Below are positions 2,692 through 32,329 of a DNA stretch of 64,000 nt, piece by piece; within the stretch, counting starts at the first letter, position 1; each line of letters begins with the position of its first letter. Made by a program: the position numbers and the translations under genes. The notes below the pieces were generated by a model. That model did no database searches and was not told where the DNA came from. It saw only the letters and a program-made list of their open reading frames with translations. This DNA is from Symbiodinium sp. CCMP2592 (taxonomy: Eukaryota > Sar > Dinophyceae > Suessiales > Symbiodiniaceae): positions 62,001 to 126,000 of the forward strand of contig CAJNDT010003380.1 of NCBI GenBank assembly GCA_905221615.1. Direction: 5' to 3'.

Positions 2692-2696
2692 AGGTC

Positions 2697-5600
2697 TTGA
2701 CTGCCAACACCAATCGTACCGGCACTGCAAAGACGCCTTTGCTCGTGAGCCTCATGAGACAGGAATCCGTGCAATTAGCATCTTTGCAAGAAGTGGATGT
2801 CAACGTTGAGTCTGCAGTGGGCTTTTGCAAACACTGGAAGACTCAGGGATTCACTGCAGTACTGGCGCCTTTGGACGCCGAAAGACGCCAACACCGAGTT
2901 GCTCTGATCTCTTCGCTGCCTATCAAGCCTATTGCATTAGGGGGGGTTTTTGACAGCTCCAGGGTTGCTGCAGGTTTGATTGAGCTACAACGTCAAGGGA
3001 ACAAAATGTCAATTTTAGTCCTTGCCGTTTATGGTTACCCTGGGAACCTCCCGAAAACTTCCCTACTTGTTGAAAGTCTTTTTGAAAAAGCGGCTACCTT
3101 CGGAGGCCCTGTGCTGGCCGTAGGAGACTGGAATGCAGTAGAGGAGGAGGGTGATCTCGCTCGCCTCGTGACCTCAGGACACCTGATCCCGCTTGATGAT
3201 GGTGATCGCAGCGACCTTAGGAACACCAATCCCGCCCGCACCAGAAGAATCGATTATGGAGTGAGCACCGCGCACATCCGTGCCGACGCCGTGCTACACT
3301 ACGATCGAGATGACATCTCGGACCATCTGTGCGTCGCTTACAGCTTGGACCTGGAGACCTGGCAACAGTGTGCCGGTATCCCTAGATTTCAGCCTGTGGA
3401 ACAAACGGACCCCCAGATCATCATGAACCGGTTTCGCGAGGCTTGGGAACCAAGAGTTTTTGAGTCCTGTTTGGAAGCTGCTGATGTTGACCAGGCCCTT
3501 GTGCACCTTTATAGAGTGGCCGAAACTTGCTTGCATTCCGGAGATTCGAGCTGTGCCGAGGCCGTCGGCCGTGCGATGCTCTGGGACCCTGTGCGCAACG
3601 TATGCCGCCCTCACCACACCACAACAGAAGGTCATGCCTCCTTGACGTTGCACACCCTGCGTAAATTGGACAGTCAACTGCGACAGCTGCGTTGCCAGCC
3701 TTTTGACCAAAACCTAAGGACTGCGATACGGAAAAAATGCGGGGACCTGCGTCGCAGACTCCCTGACTGCCCTTTCTTTGACCTTAATGATCTTGACGCC
3801 ACTCTCGCTAGTGTTGAAGCTTTGCGGTCGGACTTGACTGCCCAGGAAAAGCAGATCCGCATCGCCAGGTGGAGGACTGAAACCAACAATGTCACTGCTG
3901 CCACTGCCTGGGTCAAGCGGTGGGCCGCGCGCCGTGTCGAGCTCGACACCCCGCCCTGCGAGTTGGCCAAAGCTCCCACTGACATCCACCCCACTTCTGT
4001 CGTCAATACTCAAAGCAGGGTGTGGATGAATAAGTGGTCTTGCGATTCCGAGCCCATAAACCAGGCCGACCTGGCCGCAATCTTGAGTGCCCTCCCCAGG
4101 CCGACTCAGGCTTCAGTGGACTTATCAATCAAAGGGCAGGAACTTTTTGATGCGGTCAAAAGAATGTCCCACAAGGCCGTCGGCCCCGACCAATGGGGTG
4201 CCGAGACCCTGCACCTGCCATCTGAGTGGTGGGACTCCTTGGGACGACTCTGGACACTTGTGCTCTCCAGTGGGCACGTCCCACTGCTGTGGAGACGTGC
4301 GTTGGTAATACTTGTCCCTAAAGCACATACTGAGTACCGCCCCATAGCGCTGACATCCTTCTTTTGGCGCGCGGGTGCCCGCATCCTGTGCAGGCGTATG
4401 CAAGCGTGGATTGCATCGTGGTGCTCGCCCCAGGCCGCTGGAGGAGCCCCAGGCAAAGGCACCACTGACGCTCATGGCGTCATCTTGCAGAGCCGGCACC
4501 AGGGTGCCAAAGCCTACATACAGCAGGATTTATCCGCGTATTTTGACAGCATCAGGCTCCCACAGCTGCTCACCATCCTTGACCACATGCGGGCCCCGCC
4601 ATGCCTGGGCAGGCTGCTGGCCTCTTTTTACAGCGACTCTCAGAGATTGTTTAAAGTCTCTAAGGTCACCAATGAAAGGTGGAGGACGTCAACCAAAGGT
4701 CTCCTGCAGGGGTGCCCTCTTTCTCCCCTGTGCGCCCTTCTGATCGGCAACGTTTGGCATGCATACGTCACCCGTGGCGGTCTTACTAAGGCGCTTATCT
4801 TTGTGGATGATAGGCTTCTATGGGCGCCGCCAGGCGCCAGAGACGTGGAGGCGGCCCTCGCGGATGGGGTGACGAAAAGTAATTTCTTTGATAAGGTCAT
4901 GAATTTTACCTGTCGTCCCTCAAAGTGCGCGATTGTCGAGCCTAAGGCCCGCCCCAAGCTAAGTACACTTGCGGCACAGTTGGGATATCCGACCCGTCAC
5001 CGTTTGGAAATCTTGGGCCTCACTGTTGAGCTTGACAGTGGAAAAACCGGCTTACTTAAGCTGAGTGTTGACACCCTCCAGGCTCGCCTTCGCGCCCTAA
5101 ACATCCTGAACCCCTCTTTCGGTGTGGCAAGGGTCGTGTGTTCCAGTTTGGTTTTCGCTGCTCTGGCTTGGGCTGCAGGCATTGCAGCCCCGGAAACGAA
5201 GGATCTCACCGCCATCCGGAAGTCGGTCCACCGAGCCCTCAAACCTCAGATCACAGGCGAAACTCCGTGGGTCCTTCTAGCCGAAGTCCACGGATGGCAG
5301 TGGGACCCCAAATGGCTTTTGCAATGGAGGGCCTTATGTGCAGTCGGGAGACATGTGACAAGGGGTGCAGCTCAAAGTGACAACCCGGTGCAGGCTGTCC
5401 TCCCCCATGCCGTCAGCACCGCCGCCGACTTGGGCTGGACACTTGAACTCAATGGCGCCGCCATCTCTCGAGTCGACGATGCCGGGCAGACACGACGTTT
5501 TTGGTTCGGGTGGCAGAACAGCCAAGTTTTGCGCGACTGGCTCACCGAAGAGCACCGCAAGCGAGGCATCGCAAGCTGTGGACGTGTCAAGACCTCTTAC

Positions 5601-6608
5601 CACCGTGCAGAGGCAGGCCTTGCTATGGGCCTAAATCTTGATGCACCGTGCCCGAGCATCCGCTTCGCCCTGGCGGGCCACAGACTTCTCGGACAGAGTC
5701 AGACACTTGATGTTCGCCGAGCCTCTCTGGCCACAGGCGGTTCGGCCTGGTACCACCGTCAGCGCCTCCCTGCTGGGCGTGATTCTGAGGTCAAATGCCT
5801 GTGCAATCTCTCCTGGCCCTCGCGAGCCCACGTTACGTGGGTATGCCCAAAGACAGTTGTGCACAGGCAGGGTCTCCGGGCCCCCACGAACAGAGTAGAA
5901 GAAAGGCTGTTTGGAGCCCCCCTGCCGGAATACCCAGCTGCCCCTGATGGCAACCAGGTCCCAGCCATGATTCAGGCCTTACGTGACCACTTCTGCCAGG
6001 TCCTGACACATGGTGCCGGCAACATTCTTGTTGCCAGTGATGGGAGCCATCATCTTGGGGTAGGTGCTTGTGCAGTGGTGACGGAGAGTTCCGAAGACAC
6101 CTTCTCCGCAGGAGATGATGCCGAAGACCAATCTCCCTTTCGATACGAGATGGTCGGTTTGAATGCCCTCCTACAAGCTCTCCCGAGGGGGCAGCGGTAC
6201 AACAACTCCACCGTGACCATCTTGGTCGATTGCCAAAGTGCTTTGGATTCTGTTCAGAGTCCCGGCACTAGCAAGCTCAGGTGCCTGGCGGAGGAGTCGG
6301 CTTCTTTGCTACAGGCACTCCGCCAGGACTACAAGGCTGTCCACCTGGTGTGGGTCCCCTCGCACAACAAACGACTTGATTGGCAACCGCCTCTCAGCTT
6401 GGATGATCGCCGGTGCCGTGACCTGAACGATAAGGCCGACCGGGCAGCCAACCAACGACGTGACTCGCGGGCCCAAGGCTCCTCTCGTGTGGAGTGGCAT
6501 CGCCGCTTTGAGGAAGCTGAGCGATGGGAAGTTGCTGCCATCTCGGCGGCCGCTGCGTCATCTGCCCTTCTTTACGATCACCTCAAACCTTCAGATTCCC
6601 CTCCCTAG
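2697..6608 (+). CDS. LINE ORF2: endonuclease, reverse transcriptase, RNase H
   Basis: A polyprotein of about 1303 residues. The apurinic-type endonuclease (EEP fold) covers residues 3-220: ANTN near the start, LASLQEVD (catalytic Glu32), AVGDWNAV (143-146), RRIDYG (Asp186) and ISDHLCV (His210). The reverse transcriptase spans about 490-800, with QQDLSAYFDS (Asp611), LLQGCPLSPL and the catalytic box FVDD (702-705). A Cys/His knuckle lies near 1034-1050. RNase H spans 1108-1255, with VASDGSHH (Asp1115), YEMVGLNAL (Glu1151), LVDCQSAL (Asp1178) and WVPSHNK. The frame opens at 2634 and has no ATG before the endonuclease; 2697 is TTG. ORF2 is therefore probably translated from ORF1 by a -1 shift or reinitiation. 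The frames overlap by 58 bases, and A5 at 2669-2673 is the only visible slip candidate. Confidence 0.9.
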   Translation: MTANTNRTGTAKTPLLVSLMRQESVQLASLQEVDVNVESAVGFCKHWKTQGFTAVLAPLDAERRQHRVALISSLPIKPIALGGVFDSSRVAAGLIELQRQGNKMSILVLAVYGYPGNLPKTSLLVESLFEKAATFGGPVLAVGDWNAVEEEGDLARLVTSGHLIPLDDGDRSDLRNTNPARTRRIDYGVSTAHIRADAVLHYDRDDISDHLCVAYSLDLETWQQCAGIPRFQPVEQTDPQIIMNRFREAWEPRVFESCLEAADVDQALVHLYRVAETCLHSGDSSCAEAVGRAMLWDPVRNVCRPHHTTTEGHASLTLHTLRKLDSQLRQLRCQPFDQNLRTAIRKKCGDLRRRLPDCPFFDLNDLDATLASVEALRSDLTAQEKQIRIARWRTETNNVTAATAWVKRWAARRVELDTPPCELAKAPTDIHPTSVVNTQSRVWMNKWSCDSEPINQADLAAILSALPRPTQASVDLSIKGQELFDAVKRMSHKAVGPDQWGAETLHLPSEWWDSLGRLWTLVLSSGHVPLLWRRALVILVPKAHTEYRPIALTSFFWRAGARILCRRMQAWIASWCSPQAAGGAPGKGTTDAHGVILQSRHQGAKAYIQQDLSAYFDSIRLPQLLTILDHMRAPPCLGRLLASFYSDSQRLFKVSKVTNERWRTSTKGLLQGCPLSPLCALLIGNVWHAYVTRGGLTKALIFVDDRLLWAPPGARDVEAALADGVTKSNFFDKVMNFTCRPSKCAIVEPKARPKLSTLAAQLGYPTRHRLEILGLTVELDSGKTGLLKLSVDTLQARLRALNILNPSFGVARVVCSSLVFAALAWAAGIAAPETKDLTAIRKSVHRALKPQITGETPWVLLAEVHGWQWDPKWLLQWRALCAVGRHVTRGAAQSDNPVQAVLPHAVSTAADLGWTLELNGAAISRVDDAGQTRRFWFGWQNSQVLRDWLTEEHRKRGIASCGRVKTSYHRAEAGLAMGLNLDAPCPSIRFALAGHRLLGQSQTLDVRRASLATGGSAWYHRQRLPAGRDSEVKCLCNLSWPSRAHVTWVCPKTVVHRQGLRAPTNRVEERLFGAPLPEYPAAPDGNQVPAMIQALRDHFCQVLTHGAGNILVASDGSHHLGVGACAVVTESSEDTFSAGDDAEDQSPFRYEMVGLNALLQALPRGQRYNNSTVTILVDCQSALDSVQSPGTSKLRCLAEESASLLQALRQDYKAVHLVWVPSHNKRLDWQPPLSLDDRRCRDLNDKADRAANQRRDSRAQGSSRVEWHRRFEEAERWEVAAISAAAASSALLYDHLKPSDSPP

Positions 6609-13087: not shown

Positions 13088-14639
13088 TACCTTAAACTGT
13101 TGTCACAGTAAGCAATATGCAAGTGATGACAAGCCACAATATCGATCCCTCACCATCTCACCATGTGTGTCGGTGTGTCACTGTGTGTCAAGGACCGAGG
13201 TACTTGTAAGACAGATTTGAGGAAAGGCAGGTTTTCCTTGCATTTCGGCAGAGTAATAAGTGTTAACTGCATAGTGTGCCTTTTCTACAGTTAACACTCA
13301 GTTAACACTCAGTTAACACTACAGTTAACACTACAGTTAACACTGCCGAAATGCCGCAAAAACCAGCATTTTGCAGAATACATGCGTTTTGAAAAGAAAA
13401 ACTGCTAGTTCTAGTGTCTTTTATACACATTTGACGAAAATGCTGGTTTTCCCAGCATTTCGGCAGTGTTAACTGTAGTGTTAACTGTAGTGTTAACTGA
13501 GTGTTAACTGAGTGTTAACTGAGCGTTAACTGTGGGAAATGTAAGGGAATTTACACTAAGCCAGAATACACGAGGAGCTCGCCAGTGGGAGTCCCACCGG
13601 AGTGCCGCGGAGCTGCATGGAGCAGACTTGGATCGAAGTGGAGCACCCGGGTCAGGGTGCAAAAAAAGTCGCATCCTGGAAGCCTGCAACCACAGTCGGC
13701 TTGGTGGTCTTGCACCTGCAACCAGCCGTGCCAACGGTACCCGTCACAGGAAGCGTGGTACAGTCGAGTGACGACACAGGCTACTTGGGTGATCTCAGCA
13801 AGAAGGATCCTGTCGGTACCTTAAACTGTTGTCACAGTAAGCAATATGCAAGTGATGACAAGCCACAATATCGATCCCTCACCATCTCACCATGTGTGTC
13901 GGTGTGTCACTGTGTGTCAAGGACCGAGGTACTTGTAAGACAGATTTTAGGAAACGCAGGTTTTCCTTGCATTTCGGCAGAGTAATAAGTGTTAACTGCA
14001 TAGTGTGCCTTTTCTACAGTTAGAGTAATAAGTGTTAACTGCATAGTGTGCCTTTTCTACAGTTAACACTCAGTTAACACTACAGTTAACACTACAGTTA
14101 ACACTGCCGAAATGCCGCAAAAACCAGCATTTTGCAGAATACACGCGTTTTGAAAAGAAAAACTGCTAGTTCTAGTGTCTTTTATACACATTTGACGAAA
14201 ATGCTGGTTTTCCCAGCATTTCGGCAGTGTTAACTGTAGTGTTAACTGTAGTGTTAACTGAGTGTTAACTGAGTGTTAACTGAGCGTTAACTGTGGGAAA
14301 TGTAAGGAATTTACACTAAGCCAGAATACACGAGGAGCTCGCCAGTGGGAGTCCCACCGGAGTGCCGCGGAGCTGCATGGAGCAGACTTGGATCGAGGTG
14401 GAGCACCCGGGTCAGGGTGCAAAAAAAGTCGCATCCTGGAAGCCTGCTACCACAGTCGGCTTGCGTGGTCTTGGGTCGTACCTATAGCAACCAGCCGTGC
14501 CAACAAGCTTGCCGTATCGCATTCTTGGACATGTATAGGGCTTGGTCTGCATGTGGATGGTACCCGTCACAGGAAGCGTGGTACAGTCGAGTGACGACAC
14601 AGGCTACTTGGGTGATCTCAGCAAGAAGGATCCTGTCGG

Positions 14640-14870
14640 TTGACGGAGGAAATCTTGCACCATCTGCCTAGTAACAAGTGACACGACGCTTGAGCATATC
14701 CCCACACCCCCTTTTTAACATTGAAGATGATGGATACGGAGGTGGTGCAAGATTTTTGTTACTGGAACCCACGGCACTTCCGACGATCACCGGTCAATGT
14801 TAAAAAGGGGGCGTGGGGTGTCTGCTTGGCTTGGCCACTTAAACTGGTGCAAGATTTCCTCCATCAACAG
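14640..14870. mobile_element. Inverted-repeat MITE in satellite unit
   Basis: A copy nearly identical to the one at 12857-13087, in the same position of its unit and with the same boundaries. It lies in the unit just before the one that carries the 10-kb retrotransposon. Confidence 0.8.
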
Positions 14871-15660
14871 TACCTTAAACTGTTGTCACAGTAAGCAATA
14901 TGCAAGTGATGACAAGCCACAATATCGATCCCTCACCATCTCACCATGTGTGTCGGTGTGTCACTGTGTGTCAAGGACCGAGGTACTTGTAAGACAGATT
15001 TTAGGAAACGCAGGTTTTCCTTGCATTTCGGCAGAGTAATAAGTGTTAACTGCATAGTGTGCCTTTTCTACAGTTAACACTCAGTTAACACTCAGTTAAC
15101 ACTACAGTTAACACTACAGTTAACACTGCCGAAATGCCGCAAAAACCAGCATTTTGCAGAATACACGCGTTTTGAAAAGAAAAACTGCTAGTTCTAGTGT
15201 CTTTTATACACATTTGACGAAAATGCTGGTTTTCCCAGCATTTCGGCAGTGTTAACTGTAGTGTTAACTGTAGTGTTAACTGAGTGTTAACTGAGTGTTA
15301 ACTGAGCGTTAACTGTGGGAAATGTAAGGAATTTACACTAAGCCAGAATACACGAGGAGCTCGCCAGTGGGAGTCCCACCGGAGTGCCGCGGAGCTGCAT
15401 GGAGCAGACTTGGATCGAGGTGGAGCACCCGGGTCAGGGTGCAAAAAAAGTCGCATCCTGGAAGCCTGCTACCACAGTCGGCTTGCGTGGTCTTGGGTCG
15501 TACCTATAGCAACCAGCCGTGCCAACAAGCTTGCCGTATCGCATTCTTGGACATGTATAGGGCTTGGTCTGCATGTGGATGGTACCCGTCACAGGAAGCG
15601 TGGTACAGTCGAGTGACGACACAGGCTACTTGGGTGATCTTAGCAAGAAGGATCCTGTCG

Positions 15661-15873
15661 GTTCGGTTAATGTATTCGCAGCTGCTTCCTATTTGCAGCT
15701 TTATATGTAATGGAAATACATATAAAGCAAAAGAGTATTCAAATGGAATATTCAAATGGAATTGATGCAGTCACTCGCACAACACTCGCTCCTTTTGTTC
15801 TCTGGCGGGAAATGCAGATCCGAGCTTCAGCAGCAAGAAGCTGCCTGTGAAAAGGGTCTGCATGTTTTCTCCC
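15661..15873. repeat. Split direct repeat B2 of the retrotransposon (left end)
   Basis: 213 bases, beginning GTTCGGTTAATG and ending in TCTCCC, essentially identical to 16195-16407. It forms the outer end of the element next to the satellite sequence CCTGTCG. Confidence 0.9.
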
Positions 15874-16065
15874 CCCCCGATGGGATCGAGGTGCATCAAA
15901 AGGCACCGACCTGCCATGGAGAGAGAGAATGCAGATGGACCGATCCTTTTAAAGGACAGACCATATAGATGCACAAGAGAGAATGCGAATGCAAGCAATG
16001 CTAAAGCAGTGTAAGAGTGCAGACGCCAGCACTTGCACCCAGAAACAAGGGAAGAGGTGGGTGGG

Positions 16066-16196
16066 ACAAAATTTCTGCCCGCTATGCAGGCGAGTTGGCA
16101 GCTGCGAGCCTGCTTGCTGCAATGCACATGGAATGTCATGAATGCAGCAAGCATGCAAAACATTACCAAACACTCGTGAGCAAGCACACATACCGT
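16066..16196. repeat. Split direct repeat A2 (internal)
   Basis: 131 bases ending CACATACCGT, identical or nearly so to 25562-25692. It runs directly into the repeat at 16195 so that the sequence ACCGTTCGG forms an internal copy of the joint expected in a circular intermediate. Confidence 0.9.
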
Positions 16197-16407
16197 TCGG
16201 TTAATGTATTCGCAGCTGCTTCCTATTTGCAGCTTTATATGTAATGGAAATACATATAAAGCAAAAGAGTATTCAAATGGAATATTCAAATGGAATTGAT
16301 GCAGTCACTCGCACAACACTCGCTCCTTTTGTTCTCTGGCGGGAAATGCAGATCCGAGCTTCAGCAGCAAGAAGCTGCCTGTGAAAAGGGTCTGCATGTT
16401 TTCTCCC
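16195..16407. repeat. Split direct repeat B1 (internal)
   Basis: Second copy of the 213-base end repeat. It lies between the 3' end of the Pol ORF and the internal A2 repeat, as expected for split direct repeats. Confidence 0.9.
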
Positions 16408-16476
16408 AAATGCAATCTGCCAGAGAACCGAAGTCGCGCATCAATTCCACCAAATGAAAAACGTGCGACAAGGTGA

Positions 16477-19400
16477 TTAGAGTGCTGCTCCTAATGGAGA
16501 AACACTCGGAACGCGAAAAGGAGGCTTCCAGCCCTCCGGCGAAAGGGAAATGGAAGGCGACGCAGTCCATAATGAGGTTAAAGGAATACGTCGACGACGC
16601 GACATGCTCCACCGATCAGGTAATGGAGCAGGAGGAAGCCAACGGCTCAAAAAGTCCGCTTCCACATTCTTAGGACCTGCAATGTGATGCACGTCAAGAT
16701 GCACACCAGTAAAGCTACTCAAAATGGCTAGTCGCTGCACAAATGCAGCAAGAGGCCATGAAGTCGTAAAAAGTTTGTTTGCTGTGGCCTCGGCACCACT
16801 GTTGTCACACCAGGAATGCATGCGAACAGAAAGCCTGCATCCTGGGTTAACTGCACTCAAAAGCCAAACTAATGCAATCTGACCCAAGCATTCGTAGCAA
16901 GTAATGTCCTTGTGCGCCTCGGACTTAAGAGGAAGCTCTGCAAATGCAAATTCCTCCACAGTAAATCTTTCAGAGAACCAGAATTCCCCAGCCGGTAAAG
17001 CAATGTAGCCGCCAATAGCAAATGTACGGCCATTGCCCATAGCATCGGCGGCAGCCTCCACCATTATAGTGTCAATTGGACGAAGGGATCGCCAGATAGG
17101 GGGCAATGAAGACCACTGCAGCCAGAAAAACAATAAGTTGCGAGAAGCTGGGCTCAATGCACGGCGTTTTGAGGCCGAGTCAGCAATGCGAAGCCAGATA
17201 TCCTTATCACCAATGTTGCAAGACAAAAGTTCGCGCTTGGTGCTAACTTTGCGATGTCGCACTGCAAGCACCTTGCTGCCCACTGTAATGGCGGATCCAG
17301 TGGGTAACCTCACAAGATGCAAGGTATCATTGAGACATGAAATGAAGGATTGCCAGTCGGTTTGACGAACACTGAAGTTGGTTGCACGAGGAGTGTTGAG
17401 GTCCTGGTAAAGTGACCTGAGCCAGGGCCTGGCCAATGGAAAAAGCTTGAAAAGCCATTGCATCATGCCACACAACTTGCTCAATGTAACACGATCCGTG
17501 TATTTACCACGGAGAGCAGTGACTATAACTGAATGCAATCGCTCCAGCTTGTCAGACGGAATGCAAACGCACCCCATGCCAAAATCGAGCTCCCACCCTA
17601 TCCAGCGGATGGAGCAGCCGAACTGCAATTTCTTCCACGACAAAGGAATGGAAAAAGCACCACAGAAACAGAGGGTAATGCAAAAACTCATCTCCGCCAC
17701 CGATGCAGATTGGAAGCCAAGTAAATCGTCCACGTACATGGCGAGGAAATGAGCAATGAAAATCAAGCGATGCAGTGTCCGAACAAAGAATGCACCAAGT
17801 CTAGCAAACCAGAAAGCAGAAAAAGCAGCACCGAATGGACACACTGAATAGAAATAAAGCTTGGGGCCTACCCGGATGCCGAGGAGGCCCTGCTCGGACT
17901 CCCGAACCATAATGGACTTGTGTGCAGCTTGCACATCCAGAGACCAAGCGGCGAGTGGCTCATGTTTCCCACGCAAAGGCCATGAAGTCTGTATAGTCTG
18001 TAAAGTAGGGAGTGCAGACCGCTCAGGAATAAGGCATGATGCATTTGTACCACAAATGGAGGAATCCACCACGAGTCGCGGTTTACGGCCTTCGGAATGT
18101 ACGATATTAAGCTTGCCCACCGCAACATTGGGCCAGATCTGGCGTGCAGCTTCCAAAGACTCAATGCATCGCAGCCAGCCTTTGTCCACCTCGATTTGGA
18201 CAAGTTCTTCGAGGAGGACCGGGTCGTCCTCGGCTCCCTGCCAATTTTCTTCACATACGGTCAATGCATCATCAGAAGCAGTGCGACCTGAAGCGAAAAC
18301 CCCCGAAAGGGGGATGTCGTGTTTGAAGCCAGTGGGAACCCCACTGAGCAATGCATTGAAAAGAGTCATATCTGCATCCTGAAGTGCCGAGGATAATGCA
18401 GACAGAGCATTCAGGCAGTATGGCTGCCCATCCTTAATGGACCAGTCGACATCGGAACAACCCTGAGACGCCAACCAGGTACAAAACAACCCACGAATTT
18501 CGCCAAGCTCAGTGTCAGAGAACAGATGAGCCTCAGAAGGATGCAAAAGCTTATGCCGCAGCCTGGAAGGAATGCATGCCTTGCCACACCAGGTAATCAA
18601 TGCATGACGAAGTGATTTGAAAATGTCCTTAGTGGAGCGGTCCTGGCCACTCCAGTCCGGGCGGCTGTTTAGGCCACCACCATCCACCCAAGCATGTGGT
18701 GAAGCATCGCACTGTTTGACCGGAATGCAGGACCAGGCCTCATCGATGGAGAACTCGCATTGACCTGAGCATTTGCGAAGGTTGGATATCAAAAGTATGT
18801 CGCAAAGTGCATCCACGAATGCAGGAGGATAATCAGAGATCGTGGAGGTCGCACTGCATCTACTACAACAGCATAGGTGCCCCAAAGCAGAGAAAGAAGG
18901 CGACGAAGAGACCATGATCCAGGGGCTACCACCAACCCCCTTGTAAGCACATGCCGGTACCTGCACAATGTTTTGAAGGCCGGTGGAAATGCAGTGTAGG
19001 AAAAGTTGATCGGACCAGCATTGGTTCCAACCAGAAATGTCAAAATGCACCGTTGCACCTGCAGAGTGTGCCACCTTGCAAAGTTGGAGTACCCAACGAG
19101 TGTGGCTCTCGCTCCAGTGGGGTGAATAAACCAGAAAAATGGAGGCAAATACACCCTCACCCGCACAACGAAAAATGCAGTTTCTGGCATGTTCCTGATC
19201 CAGAGACTGAATGCAAACATGAGGAACTCCAGCAGTTGAGAGGCCAGCACGAAGTACCTCAGCATGTTGTGAAGCCAGCAAAAGGCAGAACTTCTTCGGA
19301 AGAACGGGCTGAGGCAGTTCGACCGCTTGAGGTTGAGGCATCCGACGAGGTAAGGATTCGCCAGGCAGGGGAAACCCCCACATACGCAATGCATCAACAT

Positions 19401-20025
19401 CTGATGACTGAAATTCAGCTAAACGCCTGCAGGTGTAGGCCGTAATGACCCACCTGTCGCCCCTGAAGGGCTCAGTGGCGTGCCAAAGACCACCATCAAA
19501 TGCAAGGGGAGAAGACCTGGTGTCAACCAATGAAAAGTTGATGCACTTCTGTAAGGCTTCGACACGCAAGGATTTATCGCCCGATGAAGATTCCAGCAGT
19601 AAACCTCCGCCCGAAAAGTCCCCCAGGGCAACAGTGTAGTTGAGGGTGCCGGGCTCGTTGGATGTATCGCGATGAACTTTTAGCACCTCGTTGTGAGAGA
19701 TGCATAGAGAAGTCCATGTCCCCAATGGAAAGAGCATGCATAACCAAGCATTAAGCCGGCACAAGATGTGCTGGAATTGGAATGTATGATGTGTCAATCC
19801 AAAACGCACCGACTGCGAGAAACCACCGAGGTTAAAGTAGGCGGCCTCTGCACGGTCCCCCTCAATAGCCTGCCATCTGTACTTCACAGTTGTGGATGTA
19901 AAGGACTGCTGAAGCAAGTCAAGAATGTCAGCATCAGATGTAGCTGTATGACCTGCCGATGGAACAGGTGAGGGTGCATGTGTTGAAAGCCCGGAAAACT
20001 GTCCCTCCACAGGTTTCGGGCTGTT
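16477..20025 (-). CDS. Retrotransposon Pol: 2OG-oxygenase-like domain, RT, RNase H
   Basis: About 1180 residues, in frame with the upstream Gag. Numbering from the GTG at 20010: residues 85-200 resemble a 2-oxoglutarate/Fe(II) dioxygenase, with HRD (113-115) as the HxD motif, TLNYTVALGDFSGGGLLLE as the double-stranded-helix core, LWHATEPF with distal His177 and Arg187 ten residues on. Residues 200-600 are unassigned. The reverse transcriptase spans about 600-860: KPRLVVDSS, SLDVQAAHKS (Asp692), PFGAAFSAFWF and MYVDDLLG (759-762). RNase H follows with VEAAADAMG (Asp989), YECLGQIA (Glu1040), WCDNSGAE (Asp1069) and EADFLSRW. The YVDD and RNase H motifs match DIRS-type Pol proteins. The oxygenase is called from motif spacing alone; it could be a degenerate or unrelated fold. 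Confidence 0.85.
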   Translation of the reverse strand, partial: NSPKPVEGQFSGLSTHAPSPVPSAGHTATSDADILDLLQQSFTSTTVKYRWQAIEGDRAEAAYFNLGGFSQSVRFGLTHHTFQFQHILCRLNAWLCMLFPLGTWTSLCISHNEVLKVHRDTSNEPGTLNYTVALGDFSGGGLLLESSSGDKSLRVEALQKCINFSLVDTRSSPLAFDGGLWHATEPFRGDRWVITAYTCRRLAEFQSSDVDALRMWGFPLPGESLPRRMPQPQAVELPQPVLPKKFCLLLASQHAEVLRAGLSTAGVPHVCIQSLDQEHARNCIFRCAGEGVFASIFLVYSPHWSESHTRWVLQLCKVAHSAGATVHFDISGWNQCWSDQLFLHCISTGLQNIVQVPACAYKGVGGSPWIMVSSSPSFSALGHLCCCSRCSATSTISDYPPAFVDALCDILLISNLRKCSGQCEFSIDEAWSCIPVKQCDASPHAWVDGGGLNSRPDWSGQDRSTKDIFKSLRHALITWCGKACIPSRLRHKLLHPSEAHLFSDTELGEIRGLFCTWLASQGCSDVDWSIKDGQPYCLNALSALSSALQDADMTLFNALLSGVPTGFKHDIPLSGVFASGRTASDDALTVCEENWQGAEDDPVLLEELVQIEVDKGWLRCIESLEAARQIWPNVAVGKLNIVHSEGRKPRLVVDSSICGTNASCLIPERSALPTLQTIQTSWPLRGKHEPLAAWSLDVQAAHKSIMVRESEQGLLGIRVGPKLYFYSVCPFGAAFSAFWFARLGAFFVRTLHRLIFIAHFLAMYVDDLLGFQSASVAEMSFCITLCFCGAFSIPLSWKKLQFGCSIRWIGWELDFGMGCVCIPSDKLERLHSVIVTALRGKYTDRVTLSKLCGMMQWLFKLFPLARPWLRSLYQDLNTPRATNFSVRQTDWQSFISCLNDTLHLVRLPTGSAITVGSKVLAVRHRKVSTKRELLSCNIGDKDIWLRIADSASKRRALSPASRNLLFFWLQWSSLPPIWRSLRPIDTIMVEAAADAMGNGRTFAIGGYIALPAGEFWFSERFTVEEFAFAELPLKSEAHKDITCYECLGQIALVWLLSAVNPGCRLSVRMHSWCDNSGAEATANKLFTTSWPLAAFVQRLAILSSFTGVHLDVHHIAGPKNVEADFLSRWLPPAPLPDRWSMSRRRRIPLTSLWTASPSISLSPEGWKPPFRVPSVSPLGAAL

Positions 20026-20028
20026 TCA
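20026..20028 (-). other. Single in-frame UGA between Gag and Pol
   Basis: On the coding strand the Gag frame reads AAG TCC TGA AAC AGC CCG AAA CCT and continues open for about 1180 codons into Pol. It is the only stop between the Gag ATG at 21228 and the Pol stop at 16477. It may be a readthrough site that sets the Gag:Pol ratio, or a single point mutation. The base after the stop is A, which is not the strongest known readthrough context. Confidence 0.7.
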
Positions 20029-21228
20029 GGACTTGTGCATGTAAGCTGGATGATCCTTTCCGCAAGGTCGGCCGCCAACGTCAACAGCACAACCATGTAC
20101 GAATGCACAGTCATCCAACTTGCAACCAGAGCGAAGGTTCCATCGCTTGCACATCTGCTTCTGTACCCCGTTCTCGTAGAATGAAACCATCCACTTGGGG
20201 CCACCCTGGTCTTTGCCGTCCTTGGACTTACCATGTTTGCCCTTGCCTTTGCCACCCTTGCCTTTGGAAGTGGACTTGTCCGGCTGGGTGGTATGACCCG
20301 AACCAATGCTGGGCCGTTTGGGCTTCTGAATGAAAACCCTGGGTTGGAGATGACTCTGTAAAATGCAACGCACTTGCACAATCTCATGTAATGCATCATC
20401 GATGCTCCAACCTTTGTTCACGAGTTCGCAAATGCATTTCCACGCTTCTTTATCCGCCGCCTGCATTTCGGAGACATTTGGGCTTCGCAGCCCAGACTCT
20501 GGCGGCGGACGATGGAATGCAAGCCGAATGAAAAGCTTGTTATACGCCCGAAATGAACTGAGGTGAGCGACTTCCAACAAACAATATGCAAAGGCGATCA
20601 AGTCTAACAAATGCGAAAGGAACATTTGCGACACGCCAGTATCAGCGATATCCCTGCTAGGGACATCGTCAAAAATGAAGTCGTCAAGACGTGTGATCTT
20701 TTTCGGTCTGGAAGATGTAACATCTTCCTGTTTCTCCTCGCTGAGTCGAAACTTCCATGCAATGTAAGAATAGTGCTTGTCCTGCACGTGCTTGTTGCAG
20801 GATGCAAGTAGCCTTGACGAGGGCATGCTGGATGCATCGAGAATTTCGGAGGGATATGAAGCTTCGAATGTAGCTTTCATGGCATTCACTCGATCAATGC
20901 TCAACTTCGCAGGAAACGGCTCTGACCACGAAGATGTACTGAGAGCTCCACCGCCAGTAGCAGGGGGTGCAGACGTGGCTGCAGGTGCGGTCGAAATGAC
21001 CGATGAAATGCAGCGGTGATATGCTGCCTTCAAGCACGCCAAGGTGACAGTATTGAGCAATGCTTGGCCCGGGGCATCCAGGACATCTTTGATGCAATCA
21101 GGTAATGTTTCCACACCTTCGCAGATGCAAGGAAACGAATGCACCGTGAGATGAGAAGTGATCTGCCCAGCAATGAGGTCAGGAACTTTTTCCTCTTTGA
21201 GGATTTGCTCCAGACTGGGGGAGGACAT
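20026..21228 (-). CDS. Retrotransposon Gag-like protein with CCCH zinc finger
   Basis: About 400 residues from the ATG at 21228 (MSSPSLEQILKEEKV); the frame is open further upstream to 21519, but that part is Cys-rich and looks untranslated. A helical, capsid-like middle has no recognisable catalytic motif. The C-terminus is a Lys/Gly-rich basic tract (GKGGKGKGKHGKSKDGK) followed by CKRWNLRSGCKLDDCAFVH, a C-x8-C-x4-C-x3-H finger of the CCCH class, which is a plausible RNA-binding element. Its place directly upstream of Pol in the same frame supports the Gag assignment. Confidence 0.7.
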   Translation of the reverse strand: MSSPSLEQILKEEKVPDLIAGQITSHLTVHSFPCICEGVETLPDCIKDVLDAPGQALLNTVTLACLKAAYHRCISSVISTAPAATSAPPATGGGALSTSSWSEPFPAKLSIDRVNAMKATFEASYPSEILDASSMPSSRLLASCNKHVQDKHYSYIAWKFRLSEEKQEDVTSSRPKKITRLDDFIFDDVPSRDIADTGVSQMFLSHLLDLIAFAYCLLEVAHLSSFRAYNKLFIRLAFHRPPPESGLRSPNVSEMQAADKEAWKCICELVNKGWSIDDALHEIVQVRCILQSHLQPRVFIQKPKRPSIGSGHTTQPDKSTSKGKGGKGKGKHGKSKDGKDQGGPKWMVSFYENGVQKQMCKRWNLRSGCKLDDCAFVHGCAVDVGGRPCGKDHPAYMHKS

Positions 21229-21754
21229 ACTCCCAGAAAGTTCGACCTGGACAAGAATGTGATCAAAATGCAAAGAAAAGGAAATAACCTCAGGCCTGTA
21301 AAAGATGGTGCAAATGCACCGGTCAAGGGAGCCGCACAGCTGCACTGTATGCTCAGAACTGTTGGTATAAGTTACCAAAGAATGAAAAAGTAATCGTGCA
21401 AGGCACACATGGATGCAAGAAAAGCAAACCTCGCAAAGCTCCAAGGCATGACAAGGTGTCAACGTGCTGTGCATGCTCATGCAGAGTGCTGGCAATCGCT
21501 GGAGCCAAGAAAGCAACACGACATTGTAAGAGTTCGCAGACCGCAGAGGTCAAAATCAGCAGATGCAAGCTGAGAATGCAATCCGAACTGATCGAATGCA
21601 TTTTGCTCTCCCTCGCTGGGAGGTCTTGTCTAGGCGCCCAATTGGCTGCCATGAGAATGGAGGATGCTTACCGCTACCTCCAGGGCCGTCAATGGAAAAC
21701 CCGAGCAGCCCAGATTAAAATGAAGAAATGGAAAATGCAAAGCTGAGGATGCAT

Positions 21755-22513
21755 TCAATACCCTCCGCGATGCCAGGACCAATGCCAGCCGGAGTTCCAT
21801 GCAGAATCATCCCACTCCTGATCGTATGCATCGCCCGATGTATCCGTCTGCACAGACGCCTTCGAATGCATACGGGCACGATAGCAATTTTTGCAGGAGT
21901 GCTTGGTCGATGATGCAAGAAAGTGACTATCCTGAGGCACTTCCGAGCTGTAACCACAGAGGGCGTTACAGCCCGGCGTGGAACACTCCGAGCGACAGCA
22001 GACAATTTGTCTGGTCGCAAATGGACACTTGCCAGGCGGTGGCTCAGCTCCATCTTGAATGAAAGTCGGGTTGTGGATCGGATGTATTGGAAGTGCTGGT
22101 GAAGCATTGGTCTGGGATGTAGAAGTCGTAGGCGGCGTCGTGGATGCATCAGGGCTCCCGGAAGATGCATCAGGAGGATCCTTCACCGACGATGCATTCG
22201 CAGTGTCCCCTGCAGTGGAAGATGCACTGGGCAGCACAGCAGGGGATGCATCCTTACTCACCTCTTTCGTACTCGCCTCGGCCGTAGTAGGCGTCTTCTT
22301 TTCCTCCTCGATGCAAGTCTTCTCGGGCTTGGGCTGAGACGATGTAGAAGAGGTAGATGCAGACTGCTGAAAGGACATTGCTGCTATCATGAGCAGCTTT
22401 CGCTGTCCAGAAGCTGGACCGTTGCGAACACACGATACGACTTGATGTATATCGGAGTTGTAAATGAAAGCAAGAGCTTTGCGAAGTTCTTCAGAATCAC
22501 GGATATTGTCCAT
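21755..22513 (-). CDS. Cys-rich accessory ORF of the retrotransposon
   Basis: 252 residues from an ATG at 22513. The N-terminal 50 residues are helical (MDNIRDSEELRKALAF). The middle is a Ser/Thr/Pro/Ala-rich linker. The C-terminal region has a Cys cluster, with GKCPFATRQIVCCRSEC, STPGCNALCGYSSEVP and a later SCKNCYRARMHSK, suggesting a zinc-binding module. It ends in Trp/Asp-rich sequence (WDDSAWNSGWHWSWH). It lies between the recombinase and Gag on the same strand. The family was not recognised; an RNA- or DNA-binding helper is a guess. Confidence 0.55.
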   Translation of the reverse strand: MDNIRDSEELRKALAFIYNSDIHQVVSCVRNGPASGQRKLLMIAAMSFQQSASTSSTSSQPKPEKTCIEEEKKTPTTAEASTKEVSKDASPAVLPSASSTAGDTANASSVKDPPDASSGSPDASTTPPTTSTSQTNASPALPIHPIHNPTFIQDGAEPPPGKCPFATRQIVCCRSECSTPGCNALCGYSSEVPQDSHFLASSTKHSCKNCYRARMHSKASVQTDTSGDAYDQEWDDSAWNSGWHWSWHRGGY

Positions 22514-22813
22514 GATGATGCAAAAATCGCAGAGTCGCGAAATGCACCGTCCAGACTAGAGCCTAAAGTCTATGCAAGAAAGGGTATCACTTGTTCCGTG
22601 CAAAAGTAAGAATGTAAAGGCATGGAAGATGTCAAGAGAAAGCCACATGATGCAAATCCTCCGGCACTACTTCGTCTGAACACTCTGCTGCAGCGGTGTA
22701 CAAATGCAAATGCCCGCACTTGCCGACCAACCCGTCGTATCAGGTGAGTCGAAATCCCTCACAATCGCAAGTGCAAGAAGGGATGCAATCTGTTTGTCAG
22801 GCGCCCGACAAGA

Positions 22814-25447
22814 TCACGAAAGGTTCGTGAGAATAGAAATGCAAGCTTTGGACTTGCAAAAACGTGATCCCTCAGGTGGGTGAGAGACCAAGTGAAAAGT
22901 GCCCCGGCAGCCGCAAGCCGGACGGCCTTCAATGCAAGCATGTATGATGTTGCTGGTGGTTGCACTAAGAAATGCAATCTCCTCCGCCTGGCCAAGATCG
23001 TCCTCAGATGAGGAGGTCTCAGCCTCATCAGGAACCTCCTCACGGGTGGAAGACAAAGGCAATGCGAGCTTTACCGGAGGAGGAGGTGCAACTAAGTGCA
23101 CATCCGATAATGTCGTCGATGAGCCTGGCAATGTATCCAACCTGAAGAAAGTCGGGACTGAAACATGTAAAAGTGCCCCCAAATCGGAGGGCCAATGAAG
23201 CTCGGGTTCGCAGGGCATGAACGAAACACCACGCATCAGCGGGGTTCGCGACTTCCAGCCTGTCCGGACCTTATCAATGAAGCTGTCCTGAGTGATAAGG
23301 AGGGGGGACACGTCGTCCCGCCCATATAAAGCACACGATGCAGAATGTTTGTGGTGGCCCTGAAGATGCCTGGCTTCAAGAGGCATGTTAAGCTGCCTAA
23401 AGAATGCAAGCAATGTAACTTTCATGGAATGTAGAGTGTATTGTAGTTCTTGTCCAGGTGGAAGTTGATTCCACATGCAAAGCAAAGCCCTGAGCTTCGA
23501 GAGGCACTCTGCATAAGTCAAAGGTCTGATGCAACCCGCCTCTATCATAAAGAAAATGTAGTCCGGAATGGATTGGGCTCCGGGCTGGAGATCCAGCAGT
23601 GTCTCAACCGAGAGTAACCAATGAATGAGCCAGCAATGCTGGCGAGGCAACCTCAGCAGACCTGAATGAAGGCAGCCGAAGGCCATGTACTTCTGTGTCT
23701 TTGTGCGGTAGGATGCACCCCTGAAACTGTCGAAGTCAATGTACAAATCCGATAACTGGATGTGTTGGCTGTCGCCAAATCGCAGACTGCACCAAATGCA
23801 AGTCAGAACACTGCCCGCAAAAGCAGTCTCCTCAAGTGTAAACCGTCCAAACACGATTTGTGTTTCCAGCCAAAGCATGAAAGCAAGTGGAAGAGGCAAT
23901 GCCTCTTTGGATGCAGTTTGGGACTGCCAAGACCGGGCATGAAACAAACCATCATATAGGTTGGGGAAGCCAGTCGGGCGAACCGTTGATGAAAACCATC
24001 GCACCGCCTTGAGGACGTTAATGGAATGTACCGACGAATGATGCCGACGGGACAATTGGAGTGTATGGATCGCATCAATTAACTGCACCTGTGTCAGCAA
24101 TGCAATGTCAAAGCCAAGATCTGTGACCGTATGCAACAGCTGCCAGACGACAGCAATGTATCTCACCGCTGTCGTGTCCGACACTCGACGGAGCAATTGC
24201 TCTAATAAAGCACCTTTGTTAGGGCTGCCGAAAACATCACGAAGTAATGTAGAACACGGCAATGCAAAAGCACAAAGTTCACCCCACATGTGTAATGCAC
24301 GTGCCCATTGCTTTGAATGAATATCAGTCTGCTTGACCACTTTAGATCTGTCAGTGGGCTCTCCAGAATGAATAAGCTCGATACTCCGCTTGGCGCCAGG
24401 AGCAGTGGCCTGATGCTTGTGAGATGAAATACCTGGGTTCACAGACGGAGACCACGATAATGCAGCATGCTGAGGGGTAGGCGAGCTCTTAGAGACCGCC
24501 CCAGATTCCTGGGCAGCAGAATGCAATCTCTCAGAAGGGTATGATGCATAAGCGCCACGAGCCGAAGGGACCGGCCGAGGTTTGGGCGAAGCCCTAGGTA
24601 TACCAAGGGATGCTCTGAGTGCAAAAGCTGGACGAGATCTGGCCGACTCACTAGATCTCGCCACCGAAGGATGCAAGGTCGTAGCACGGCATCCGGACTC
24701 ACTGAGACGAACCGGGCGAGCCAATGGAGTGGCCTTCGGTTGGGTGTCCAAAACAGCAGGACAATGTGCAGGTGCCGGCTGAGAAAAGGCCGGCAACAAA
24801 GGATCTGAAATGTCCCTGACAGCATCATCAAAGGAAAGTCGCCCCACACGAAGCGGAGAGAAATGCAAAGGTTTCGGGGCCAAAAGTGCAGGTGGTGTCT
24901 CAGGCACTGGCGAGACCATCCCCCAGGACGTAGACCCAGAGTGCTCAGCTAATGCAGAAAGCTCCAGGGAAACATCCAATGGATCTACCAACTCGTAATC
25001 CGGATCATACACGGGCGATGGTGGTCGCATCTCGCCTGCGTGGTAGTCCAAAGGAAAAGGAGTCTCTGGTTCTTCGCCCTGTGCAGCCAGAGCAAATGCA
25101 GTAGAAGCAGAAATCACAGCTGGCTCATCACTGTCGGAAACCTCTAAAGCTGGGGGTGCAAGGCACTCATCCTGACCATCCTGCAAGGATGAAATCACCG
25201 ATGCAAAAACTGCTGACGAAGGAGAGGCCCCCACCGAGGTAGAAAAATCCTGCTGAGCCGAGGTCCGCTTCTGGAACCGTTTGACGATGCAACGGGATGG
25301 ATCAAAATCAGCAATGTCACTTCCCAATGCAGGATCACCAGCATACTCAGGCACTGACGAATCACTCACAGGCACTGACTGGTTCATAATGCAAATAAAG
25401 CAACCAATGCAACAAAGCACTGCAAAATCAGCTGGCCTGAAAACCAT
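22814..25447 (-). CDS. Tyrosine recombinase of the DIRS-like element
   Basis: 877 residues from the ATG at 25447. The first 370 residues are low-complexity and Pro/Ser-rich. A SAM-like core-binding region lies at about 380-510. The catalytic region follows: SLRFGDSQHI with the box-I Arg at about 556, RTKTQK with the beta-hairpin Lys, TLHSMKVTLLAF giving H673-x-x-K676 where many relatives have HxxR, a GHHKHS segment near 697-702, and ALYGRDD with the presumed nucleophile Tyr708. The Lys in place of the second Arg is a variation to check. It would integrate a circular DNA intermediate, in agreement with the lack of a long target duplication. On the coding strand it is the first ORF of the element. 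Confidence 0.8.
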   Translation of the reverse strand: MVFRPADFAVLCCIGCFICIMNQSVPVSDSSVPEYAGDPALGSDIADFDPSRCIVKRFQKRTSAQQDFSTSVGASPSSAVFASVISSLQDGQDECLAPPALEVSDSDEPAVISASTAFALAAQGEEPETPFPLDYHAGEMRPPSPVYDPDYELVDPLDVSLELSALAEHSGSTSWGMVSPVPETPPALLAPKPLHFSPLRVGRLSFDDAVRDISDPLLPAFSQPAPAHCPAVLDTQPKATPLARPVRLSESGCRATTLHPSVARSSESARSRPAFALRASLGIPRASPKPRPVPSARGAYASYPSERLHSAAQESGAVSKSSPTPQHAALSWSPSVNPGISSHKHQATAPGAKRSIELIHSGEPTDRSKVVKQTDIHSKQWARALHMWGELCAFALPCSTLLRDVFGSPNKGALLEQLLRRVSDTTAVRYIAVVWQLLHTVTDLGFDIALLTQVQLIDAIHTLQLSRRHHSSVHSINVLKAVRWFSSTVRPTGFPNLYDGLFHARSWQSQTASKEALPLPLAFMLWLETQIVFGRFTLEETAFAGSVLTCIWCSLRFGDSQHIQLSDLYIDFDSFRGASYRTKTQKYMAFGCLHSGLLRLPRQHCWLIHWLLSVETLLDLQPGAQSIPDYIFFMIEAGCIRPLTYAECLSKLRALLCMWNQLPPGQELQYTLHSMKVTLLAFFRQLNMPLEARHLQGHHKHSASCALYGRDDVSPLLITQDSFIDKVRTGWKSRTPLMRGVSFMPCEPELHWPSDLGALLHVSVPTFFRLDTLPGSSTTLSDVHLVAPPPPVKLALPLSSTREEVPDEAETSSSEDDLGQAEEIAFLSATTSNIIHACIEGRPACGCRGTFHLVSHPPEGSRFCKSKACISILTNLS

Positions 25448-25561
25448 GCACTCCTCCCCCTATCGCGAGCGGGAGAGGAATGAAGTGAAGCAAAACTCCA
25501 CACAGATTGGAGGCCTCCAGAGCTGTTCTAGAGGGCTTACAAAGAAAGGCCTGTTAAGCCA

Positions 25562-25692
25562 ACAAAATTTCTGCCCGCTATGCAGGCGAGTTGGCAGCTG
25601 CGAGCCTGCTTGCTGCAATGCACATGGAATGTCATGAATGCAGCAAGCATGCAAAACATTACCAAACACTCGTGAGCAAGCACACATACCGT
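25562..25692. repeat. Split direct repeat A1 (right end, 5' on coding strand)
   Basis: 131 bases ending CACATACCGT immediately before the satellite sequence ACCTTAAACTG. It pairs with 16066-16196. On the coding strand it lies about 115 bases upstream of the recombinase ATG, so it could contain the promoter; no defined promoter motif was recognised. Confidence 0.9.
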
Positions 25693-26744: not shown

Positions 26745-28364
26745 TACCTTAAACTGTTGTCACAGTAAGCAATATGCAAGTGATGACAAGCCACAATATC
26801 GATCCCTCACCATCTCACCATGTGTGTCGGTGTTTCACTGTGTGTCAAGGACCGAGGTACTTGTAAGACAGATTTTAGGAAACGCAGGTTTTCCTTGCAT
26901 TTCGGCAGAGTAATAAGTGTTAACTGCATAGTGTGCCTTTTCTACAGTTAACACTCAGTTAACACTCAGTTAACACTACAGTTCACACTACAGTTAACAC
27001 TGCCGAAATGCCGCAAAAAACCAGCATTTTGCAGAATACACGCGTTTTGAAAAGAAAAACTGCTAGTTCTAGTGTCTTTTATACACATTTGACGAAAATG
27101 CTGGTTTTCCCAGCATTTCGGCAGTGTTAACTGTAGTGTTAACTGTAGTGTTAACTGAGTGTTAACTGAGTGTTAACTGAGCGTTAACTGTGGGAAATGT
27201 AAGGAATTTACACTAAGCCAGAATACACGAGGAGCTCGCCAGTGGGAGTCCCACCGGAGTGCCGCGGAGCTGCATGGAGCAGACTTGGATCGAGGTGGAG
27301 CACCCGGGTCAGGGTGCAAAAAAAGTCGCATCCTGGAAGCCTGCTACCACAGTCGGCTTGCGTGGTCTTGGGTCGTACCTATAGCAACCAGCCGTGCCAA
27401 CAAGCTTGCCGTATCGCATTCTTGGACATGTATAGGGCTTGGTCTGCATGTGGATGGTACCCGTCACAGGAAGCGTGGTACAGTCGAGTGACGACACAGG
27501 CTACTTGGGTCATCTCAGCAAGAAGGATCCTGTCGGTACCTTAAACTGTTGTCACAGTAAGCAATATGCAAGTGATGACAAGCCACAATATCGATCCCTC
27601 ACCATCTCACCATGTGTGTCGGTGTGTCACTGTGTGTCAAGGACCGAGGTACTTGTAAGACAGATTTTTAGGAAACGCAGGTTTTCCTTGCATTTCGGCA
27701 GAGTAATAAGTGTTAACTGCATAGTGTGCCTTTTCTACAGTTAGAGTAATAAGTGTTAACTGCATAGTGTGCCTTTTCTACAGTTAACACTCAGTTAACA
27801 CTCAGTTAACACTGCAGTTAACACTACAGTTAACACTGCCGAAATGCCGCAAAAAACCAGAATTTTGCAGAATACACGCGTTTTGAAAAGAAAAACTGCT
27901 AGTTCTAGTGTCTTTTATACACATTTGACGAAAATGCTGGTTTTCCCAGCATTTCGGCAGTGTTAACTGTAGTGTTAACTGTAGTGTTAACTGAGTGTTA
28001 ACTGAGTGTTAACTGAGCATTAACTGTGGGAAATGTAAGGATTTTACACTAAGCCAAAATACACGAGGAGCTGTGGGAGTCCCACCGGAGTGCCGCGGAG
28101 TGGCATGGAGCAGACTTGGATCGAAGTGGAGTACCCGGGTCAGGGTGCTAAAAAAAGTCGCATCCTGGAAGCCTGCAACCACAGTCGGCTTGTGTGGTCT
28201 TGGGCCGTACCTATAGCAAGCAGCGGTGCCAACAAGCTTGCCGTATCGCTTTCTTGGACATGTATCGGGCTTGGTCTGCATGTGGATGGTACCCGTCACA
28301 GGATGCGTGGTACAGTCGATTGAAGACACAGGCTACTTTGTCTCAGCGAGAAGGATCCTGTCGG

Positions 28365-31752: not shown

Positions 31753-32189
31753 TCGTCATTGCTTACCACAGCAATCGGCTTATAAAGCTCCTATAGTCCG
31801 ATACTACTCTCACCGCCACTAACCGCCATTTCAATCCGCAGGTGTTCGAATCGCGCGCAACCCGGTTACCAAGCTCGAAAGGTCTAAAGGGTTCGGGGTG
31901 AGGGTGTCAGGCTTCATGGGTTTTTCAGGTCCTCGGGCGTTTGATTGAGGGACTCCTTATTAAACCCAAGACCCTACACCAACAACCCTAAAATGCTAAA
32001 ACCCTTCAACCCCTGAAGTACGAAGTGGATTTACAAACTGATTCCAGCTTCGCTCGAACTTCGGGTTTCAGGGTCATGCCTGAACCATGCAAACTCTTAA
32101 ACGGTTTAGGGCTTAGGTTTAACCTGAGCCTGAAACAAACCCTAGTCGAACATATACAAGGACATCATAATGAAGGCCAAAATGTAGGT

Positions 32190-32329
32190 AAACCCTAAAA
32201 CCCTAAACCCTAAACCCTAAAACCCTAAACCCTAAACCCTAAACCCTAAACCCTAAAACCCTAAACCCTAAAACCCTAAACCCTAAACCCTAAACCCTAA
32301 AACCCCTAACCCTAAACCCTAAACCCTAA
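32190..32329. repeat. Interstitial telomere-type array, (CCCTAAA)n
   Basis: About 140 bases of nearly perfect CCCTAAA repeats with occasional extra A or C. This is the plant/dinoflagellate type TTTAGGG telomere repeat on the complementary strand. It lies inside the window with unrelated sequence on both sides, so it is interstitial in this assembly. Confidence 0.9.

Follow-up and report, generated by a model that had tools for sequence, protein, structure and literature searches.

A predicted TET/JBP-type oxygenase domain in the Pol protein of a DIRS-type retrotransposon of Symbiodinium

DIRS-type retrotransposons with a DNMT3 domain, named SymbioDIRS-Dnmt3, have been described in Symbiodinium (de Mendoza et al. 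2018, PMC5890265). Oxygenases dependent on Fe(II) and 2-oxoglutarate (2OG) have been reported from mobile elements of other kinds. TET/JBP genes sit in fungal DNA transposons (Kyakuja and others) and in Helitrons (PMC12730594, 2025), and orchid Gypsy elements carry a working AlkB-type N6-methyladenosine (m6A) demethylase (PMC9289625). In the available parts of the fungal survey of 2025, TET/JBP is reported from no retrotransposon, and a possible reason is offered (PMC12730594). The main text of PMC5890265 contains neither 'oxygenase' (even within a word) nor 'oxoglutarate', '2OG' or 'TET'. Here, a predicted TET/JBP-type oxygenase domain is described in the Pol protein of a DIRS-type retrotransposon, which is located in a stretch of 64,000 nucleotides from Symbiodinium sp. 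CCMP2592 (contig CAJNDT010003380.1, positions 62,001 to 126,000), hereafter called the window. A literature search restricted to open-licence papers found no report of a DIRS element or a dinoflagellate retrotransposon with a 2OG domain, be it of TET/JBP or another type, and none of a TET/JBP-like domain fused to a reverse transcriptase.

As far as the available text on SymbioDIRS-Dnmt3 goes, these elements and the window element are alike in their A-coding-B-A-B repeats, in a separate open reading frame (ORF) for the tyrosine recombinase (YR), which in the window element is a probable one, and in the fusion of an accessory domain to the reverse transcriptase (RT) in Pol. They differ in that the window element has an oxygenase and that its methyltransferase-like part has decayed. 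The fungal TET/JBP transposons are, from the accessible text, likewise mobile elements with a TET/JBP-type oxygenase, but the carriers are DNA transposons or Helitrons, whereas the window domain is fused to an RT. The orchid Ty3/Gypsy elements are likewise retrotransposons with an Fe(II)/2OG oxygenase but, according to the portion of PMC9289625 at hand, differ in being long terminal repeat elements with a separate ORF for an AlkB-family enzyme, shown in vitro to be an m6A RNA demethylase. An initial annotation of this locus, made from the letters of the sequence, had stated that DIRS elements are not known to carry oxygenases. This holds in so far as neither of the known cases is a YR retrotransposon, and the AlkB of orchid Gypsy elements and the TET/JBP of fungal DNA transposons have to be added to it.

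The domain is located N-terminally in Pol, in front of the RT and in the same frame:

16477..20025, minus strand: Pol open frame of 1182 amino acids (aa), free of stops, first Met at residue 97
19381..19938, minus strand: Pol residues 30-215, predicted Fe(II)/2OG oxygenase domain of TET/JBP-like type, from the model, fold matches and the family sequence signal
19666..19674, minus strand: HxD metal motif, His118-Arg119-Asp120, His and Asp invariant in 22/22 aligned sequences
19657..19659, minus strand: Asn123, five residues after His118 and corresponding in position to Asn1387 of human TET2, Asn in 22/22
19480..19482, minus strand: His182, predicted distal metal ligand, in 21/22 aligned sequences and 28/29 genome copies
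19453..19455, minus strand: Arg191, predicted 2OG-binding Arg, in 22/22 aligned sequences and 29/29 genome copies

The fusion of an oxygenase-like domain to an RT, as proposed initially, is borne out by an RVT_1 match in the same 1182-aa frame (E 5e-4, under the curated cut-off of Pfam). The residues on which the proposal was based, HRD (HxD), GGGLLLE and a distal His 64 residues further on, are all present; the Arg follows the distal His after nine residues and not after ten. Relatives of the domain were collected from databases (37 sequences) and from the genome, in which 147 places were scored of 4595 candidates; many of the scored places lie in open frames of more than 1,100 aa, among them the longest with 1759 aa. 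The named relatives are from Symbiodinium, and no relatives turned up when viral_contigs and genome_contigs were scanned. In an alignment of the window domain with 21 relatives, 18 of which are 30-41% identical to it, His118, Asp120, Arg191, the Asn at H+5 and six more positions are invariant in all 22 rows. As HxD and Arg are kept in all 22 of these diverse sequences and the distal His in 21, the pattern is not due to chance. Sibling copies in the genome also keep these residues: among 29 copies including that of the window, HxD and Arg are present in every one and the distal His in 28.

An AlphaFold2 model built from a 27-sequence alignment of diverse relatives is a double-stranded beta-helix with a predicted local distance difference test score (pLDDT) of 86.3, while a less diverse input of ten sequences gave a pLDDT of 39. 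Foldseek returned 117 matches in the PDB at E <= 0.001, and the 50 listed are all 2OG oxygenases, led by CcTet and then E. coli AlkB/ABH2. The model can thus be assigned with confidence to the Fe(II)/2OG oxygenase fold, and the oxygenase reading of the initial annotation is upheld by the model together with the Foldseek and VIA-align matches. CcTet and NgTet1 are among the closest solved folds, and human TET2 is close by sequence through a relative, L072 (see below). All three share the metal, cofactor and base-contact positions with the window domain by sequence, but they are at most 17% identical to it and are not fused to an RT. These proteins are stand-alone host enzymes.

Placement within the oxygenases was based on the relatives. 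When the 22 members were scanned singly with Pfam, Tet_JBP was the sole 2OG family reported, and it was matched by two of them (L069 with E 0.0029 and L060 with E 0.076); by themselves these two matches are weak. The Tet_JBP profile (PF12851) gave 93 matches in the genome at E <= 1 (150 scored), the best with E 2.2e-4, and the leading matches lie repeatedly in open frames, with lengths of 1283, 1285 and 848 aa. The best genome match, L072, comprises 361 bases, reads ...AHRDTHNM...LHATLPWSG... and matches Tet_JBP as its sole Pfam family with E 1e-7. In a PDB search with L072, human TET2 provided the three best sequences (E ~0.02), with two stretches of weak similarity, one around HRDTHN and the other around LHAT. 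The window-family profile matches L072 at 3e-17 (database size set to 177,635). Because L072 matches both Tet_JBP and the window-family profile, it connects the window family with TET/JBP. The H+5 residue of Tet enzymes is Asn1387 in TET2, Asp234 in NgTet1, Asp350 in CMD1 and Gly331 in CcTet, and its side chain contacts N4 of 5-methylcytosine (5mC) in TET2, NgTet1 and CMD1, according to the sections of PMC11040006 at hand. At this base-contact position, the window family has a polar residue, Asn, in all rows of the alignment. Taken together, the sequence signals place the domain in the TET/JBP branch, which is narrower than 'oxygenase'. The preferred reading is that the Pol domain is a TET/JBP-type Fe(II)/2OG oxygenase that likely hydroxylates the 5-methyl group of pyrimidines in the DNA copy of the element itself, with a probability of about 0.6. 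We infer activity, DNA as the substrate, and 5mC or thymine as the base. The initial annotation had named nucleic acid or capsid as the target. Since the best family sequence signal is that of TET/JBP, this is narrowed to nucleic acid, most likely DNA bases.

Several observations weigh against this reading. By itself, the window domain gives no match to a 2OG family of Pfam or NCBIfam or to a PDB entry, and sequence searches with its close relatives named no oxygenase family either; it is linked to TET/JBP through relatives, not directly. None of the 93 Tet_JBP matches in the genome exceeds the curated cut-off of Pfam, and L072 scores 31.8 bits against a cut-off of 34.9; this relative is known from its 361 bases alone, so that any link to an RT lies outside that stretch. 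As a control, Tet_JBP matched one of 14 control genomes (E. coli), likewise under the cut-off. Two unrelated Pfam families score about as well as Tet_JBP in single members, PilZ in 3/19 close relatives (best E 0.0026) and NT5C in 2/22 members (best E 0.12). Among 34 database relatives in which the position is present, three (P0020, P0023 and P0032) have Arg instead of the distal His, as does one of the 29 genome copies (L022), and with this replacement some copies are probably dead. Among 31 database relatives with the HxD position, the Asp is lost in P0010, and in P0011 the stretch preceding it is not homologous. For the PPC-type methyltransferase-like group described below, Pfam and PDB likewise gave no match to a relevant family, and it could not be aligned with the DNMT3-like domain.

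The Pfam matches of the domain or its relatives to PilZ, NT5C, Vanin_C, YiiM and PRIMA1 were taken as chance, as were PDB matches to CalG3, to an 'Enzymatic polyprotein', which covers the RT part, and to neuropsin (E 0.5). The replacement at residue 182 is always from His to Arg in the four separate sequences L022, P0020, P0023 and P0032. Weak Tet_JBP matches at C282:219771, C317:222622, C740:127744 and other places lie in frames of ~2,800-3,290 aa, which may perhaps represent another type of polyprotein with the same domain. A further Tet_JBP match (C3380:45637-45921) lies in an 848-aa frame on the same contig, ~16 kb outside the window.

The region behind the oxygenase was compared in the retrieved portions of 18 related frames, all of which were found via the oxygenase or the window Pol, so that the presence of the oxygenase in them is by construction. 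In twelve of these frames, the domain at this place is methyltransferase-like, with motifs that resemble FLDxCSG, SPPC and ENP/EQP by eye; one of the motifs is altered in L045 and L069. L021, L065 and L070 have a motif-less region at this place, and in L067 and L068 the RT follows the oxygenase with no methyltransferase-like domain in between (RVT_1 in L067 with E 0.051). In the remaining frame, L061, the domain is DNMT3-like, as indicated by matches to DNMT3C (E 1.7e-6), TIGR00675 (E 3e-4, under the cut-off) and PF00145 (E 0.26). A single open frame at this locus contains the oxygenase, the DNMT3-like domain, an RT with YFDD and an RNase H-like region, the last two by eye. The frame of L061/L071, with a DNMT3-like domain in Pol, follows the plan of SymbioDIRS-Dnmt3; such a domain is absent from the window Pol, which has the following motif-less region instead:

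18742..19296, minus strand: decayed methyltransferase-like domain without the FxExxSG, PPC and ENP motifs, aligned by hhalign with sister sequences that keep the motifs (probability 93%, E 2.6e-7)

By this alignment, the region of the window family is homologous to the PPC group and has lost the motifs. The motifs had suggested a C5 methylase for the PPC-type domain. This assignment was rejected for want of support from Pfam and PDB and of an alignment with the DNMT3-like domain, and only the term 'methyltransferase-like' is retained.

A search with the window Pol covered the 1.098-Gb assembly that contains the window, and 39 matches were scored of 6049 candidates. All 39 are in stop-free frames, 38 spanning residues 1-1182 and one spanning 47-1182, and identity to the window Pol is at least 97% in 35 of them and 91% in the other four. 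Within the oxygenase domain, the ratio of nonsynonymous to synonymous divergence (dN/dS) is 0.04-0.16 in all nine comparisons with the window copy; the domain is under purifying selection. In the copies L021-L024, the oxygenase part has a synonymous divergence of 0.06-0.15 from the window Pol, whereas values of 0.6-2.0 are reached in the methyltransferase-like part, the linker, the RT and the RNase H. These copies look like mosaics, as though subfamilies had swapped the 5' part of Pol.

The fold by itself cannot pick TET over AlkB or prolyl-4-hydroxylase (P4H), because the VIA Z scores of TET, AlkB, ALKBH5, P4H and PHD2 are tied (10.0-11.1). This tie also counts against the TET/JBP assignment, as AlkB comes first (11.1, 146 aligned) and E. 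coli AlkB/ABH2 is next after CcTet in Foldseek. An AlkB-like demethylase could remove N-methyl groups from RNA or cDNA of the element, and the m6A demethylase of orchid Gypsy elements provides a precedent (PMC9289625). In Pfam, however, the AlkB family is matched by none of the 22 members, compared with Tet_JBP matches for two members and L072. Identity in the structural alignment is lower for AlkB (10% vs 17%), and the invariant Asn at H+5 occupies the base-contact position of Tet enzymes. An AlkB-like function is thus regarded as unlikely.

A P4H-like protein hydroxylase acting on Gag or on a host protein would agree with the compact size of the domain, with the VIA Z scores of the P4H and PHD2 chains (10.0-10.1) and with a His-to-Arg spacing that fits that of PHD2. 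It is rather more doubtful still, as there is no match to the P4H family of Pfam, the family sequence signal is that of Tet_JBP, and the neighboring domain in sister families is methyltransferase-like and in one case DNMT3-like. The least probable of the alternatives is that the domain has lost catalysis, its present role in Pol being solely structural or the binding of nucleic acid. The loss of the distal His in some copies and the decay of the adjoining methyltransferase-like domain in the window family would fit such a role, but the residues predicted to bind metal and 2OG belong to the few columns that do not vary between sequences that are mostly 60-70% different, which is unexpected of a scaffold.

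The element that encodes this Pol has the repeat order A1-ORFs-B1-A2-B2, which is DIRS-type anatomy, and its genes are arranged in the order probable tyrosine recombinase, 252-aa ORF, Gag-like ORF and Pol:

15661..25692, minus strand: whole DIRS-type retrotransposon, ~10.0 kb, delimited by split direct repeats and an uninterrupted target site
25562..25692, minus strand: repeat A1, 5' end of the element, 131 nt, 100% identical to A2
22814..25447, minus strand: 877-aa ORF, likely tyrosine recombinase, with Arg, H-x-x-K, His and Tyr by eye, class taken from repeats and target site
21755..22513, minus strand: 252-aa open frame with no credible family match
20026..21519, minus strand: ORF termed Gag-like from its place and composition, with a Lys/Gly-rich stretch and a CCCH-like end
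20026..20028, minus strand: in-frame UGA stop separating the Gag-like ORF from Pol, in 20/20 loci
17446..18228, minus strand: RT with YVDD (29/29 copies), RVT_1 match at Pol residues 694-812
16606..17163, minus strand: RNase H-like region, D, E, D, D pattern by eye
16195..16407, minus strand: repeat B1, 213 nt, 100% identical to B2
16066..16196, minus strand: repeat A2, B1-A2 junction TTAACCGAAC followed by GGTATG
15661..15873, minus strand: repeat B2, 3' end of the element, 213 nt, matching B1

The element is inserted in repeated, satellite-like sequence, the empty form of which is present in the window in two exact copies (13805-13826 and 27525-27546) and in one copy with one mismatch. Comparison with the uninterrupted satellite unit shows that the element entered without target duplication, two bases, AC, being common to element and site; one insertion was examined. 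In the 20 best-scoring of the 39 Pol matches (L001-L020, L001 being the window copy), the B1-A2 junction is always present, two loci having a single altered base on its B side, and the element ends with CCGAAC in 19 and with a variant in L013; the flanks are of 18 distinct kinds. By this anatomy, the element is a DIRS-type retrotransposon. The YR class proposed initially finds support in the splitting of the repeats and in the unduplicated target site, while the recombinase itself is recognized by its motifs R, HxxK, H and Y by eye alone, the 877-aa ORF having no Pfam or PDB match. The RNase H-like region has no Pfam match, and the Gag-like ORF has a weak one to zf-CCCH_12 (E 0.05, below the cut-off).

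At 14630-14890 in the window, a short insertion whose inverted ends read GTTGATGGAGGAAATCTTGCACC / GGTGCAAGATTTCCTCCGTCAAC (by eye) occupies the position of a satellite unit at which the retrotransposon entered another unit. Elsewhere, the window contains at 16-6608 (plus strand) an element resembling long interspersed nuclear elements, with an OTU cysteine-protease domain in its first ORF (E 4.7e-11) and an endonuclease and RT in its second. Three long overlapping open frames (824, 861 and 499 aa) with no credible Pfam match lie at 38669-44800 (plus strand), and an internal telomere-like TAAACCC array of ~19 copies at 32189-32329.

The in-frame UGA between the Gag-like frame and Pol, which is found in all of L001-L020, recurs in six loci of other families (L033, L035, L041, L045, L047 and L058, of 30 fetched), in two of which the upstream frame is short (170 and 96 aa). 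The first Met of Pol is residue 97 in the window family, 207 or 285 in the others, and 18 in L058. Because the UGA is present in all these loci and an early Met is mostly absent, Pol is likely made by stop-codon read-through.

According to the proposed mechanism, read-through of the UGA after the Gag-like ORF would yield a Pol in which the oxygenase is the first part after Gag and travels with the RT. Reverse transcription would take place inside the Gag particle, and the RT-tethered oxygenase would oxidize methyl groups of the newly made cDNA, either prior to its integration by the tyrosine recombinase or directly afterwards. In sister families, the fused methyltransferase-like domain, DNMT3-like in one, would first make 5mC. 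Because this domain has decayed in the window family, the oxygenase would there depend on host-made 5mC or on thymine. The benefit would be that the cDNA looks like host DNA or evades silencing. In dinoflagellates, 5-hydroxymethyluracil takes the place of a large share of thymine, reportedly 12% in Symbiodinium microadriaticum, and it is enriched in multimapping reads of Breviolum, as stated in the available parts of PMC11071213. As much thymine is replaced in this way, both 5mC and thymine would be sensible substrates. A close functional parallel is found in phages, in which C5-methylases and TET/JBP enzymes jointly build protected cytosines, according to the accessible text of PMC12730594. 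A write-then-oxidize cassette in one polyprotein may be proposed tentatively, at somewhat less than even odds. The DNMT3-like domain would make 5mC on the cDNA and the fused TET/JBP domain would convert it to 5-hydroxymethylcytosine (or thymine to 5-hydroxymethyluracil). The element would thus enter the genome with host-like modified bases, in a way comparable to the modification of DNA by phages, and the window family would keep the oxidizing half and live on host marks.

TET/JBP enzymes have been described in hosts, in phages and in DNA transposons, and here a TET/JBP-like domain is found in the Pol of a large retrotransposon group, which has many near-identical copies and, in at least one relative, a DNMT3-like neighbor. 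This suggests that the published DNMT-bearing elements may carry an oxidizing enzyme as well. Modified bases in the DNA of dinoflagellates might stem from such elements, which is open to a direct test, and the purpose of a retrotransposon methylase would become a question that can be addressed on one protein.

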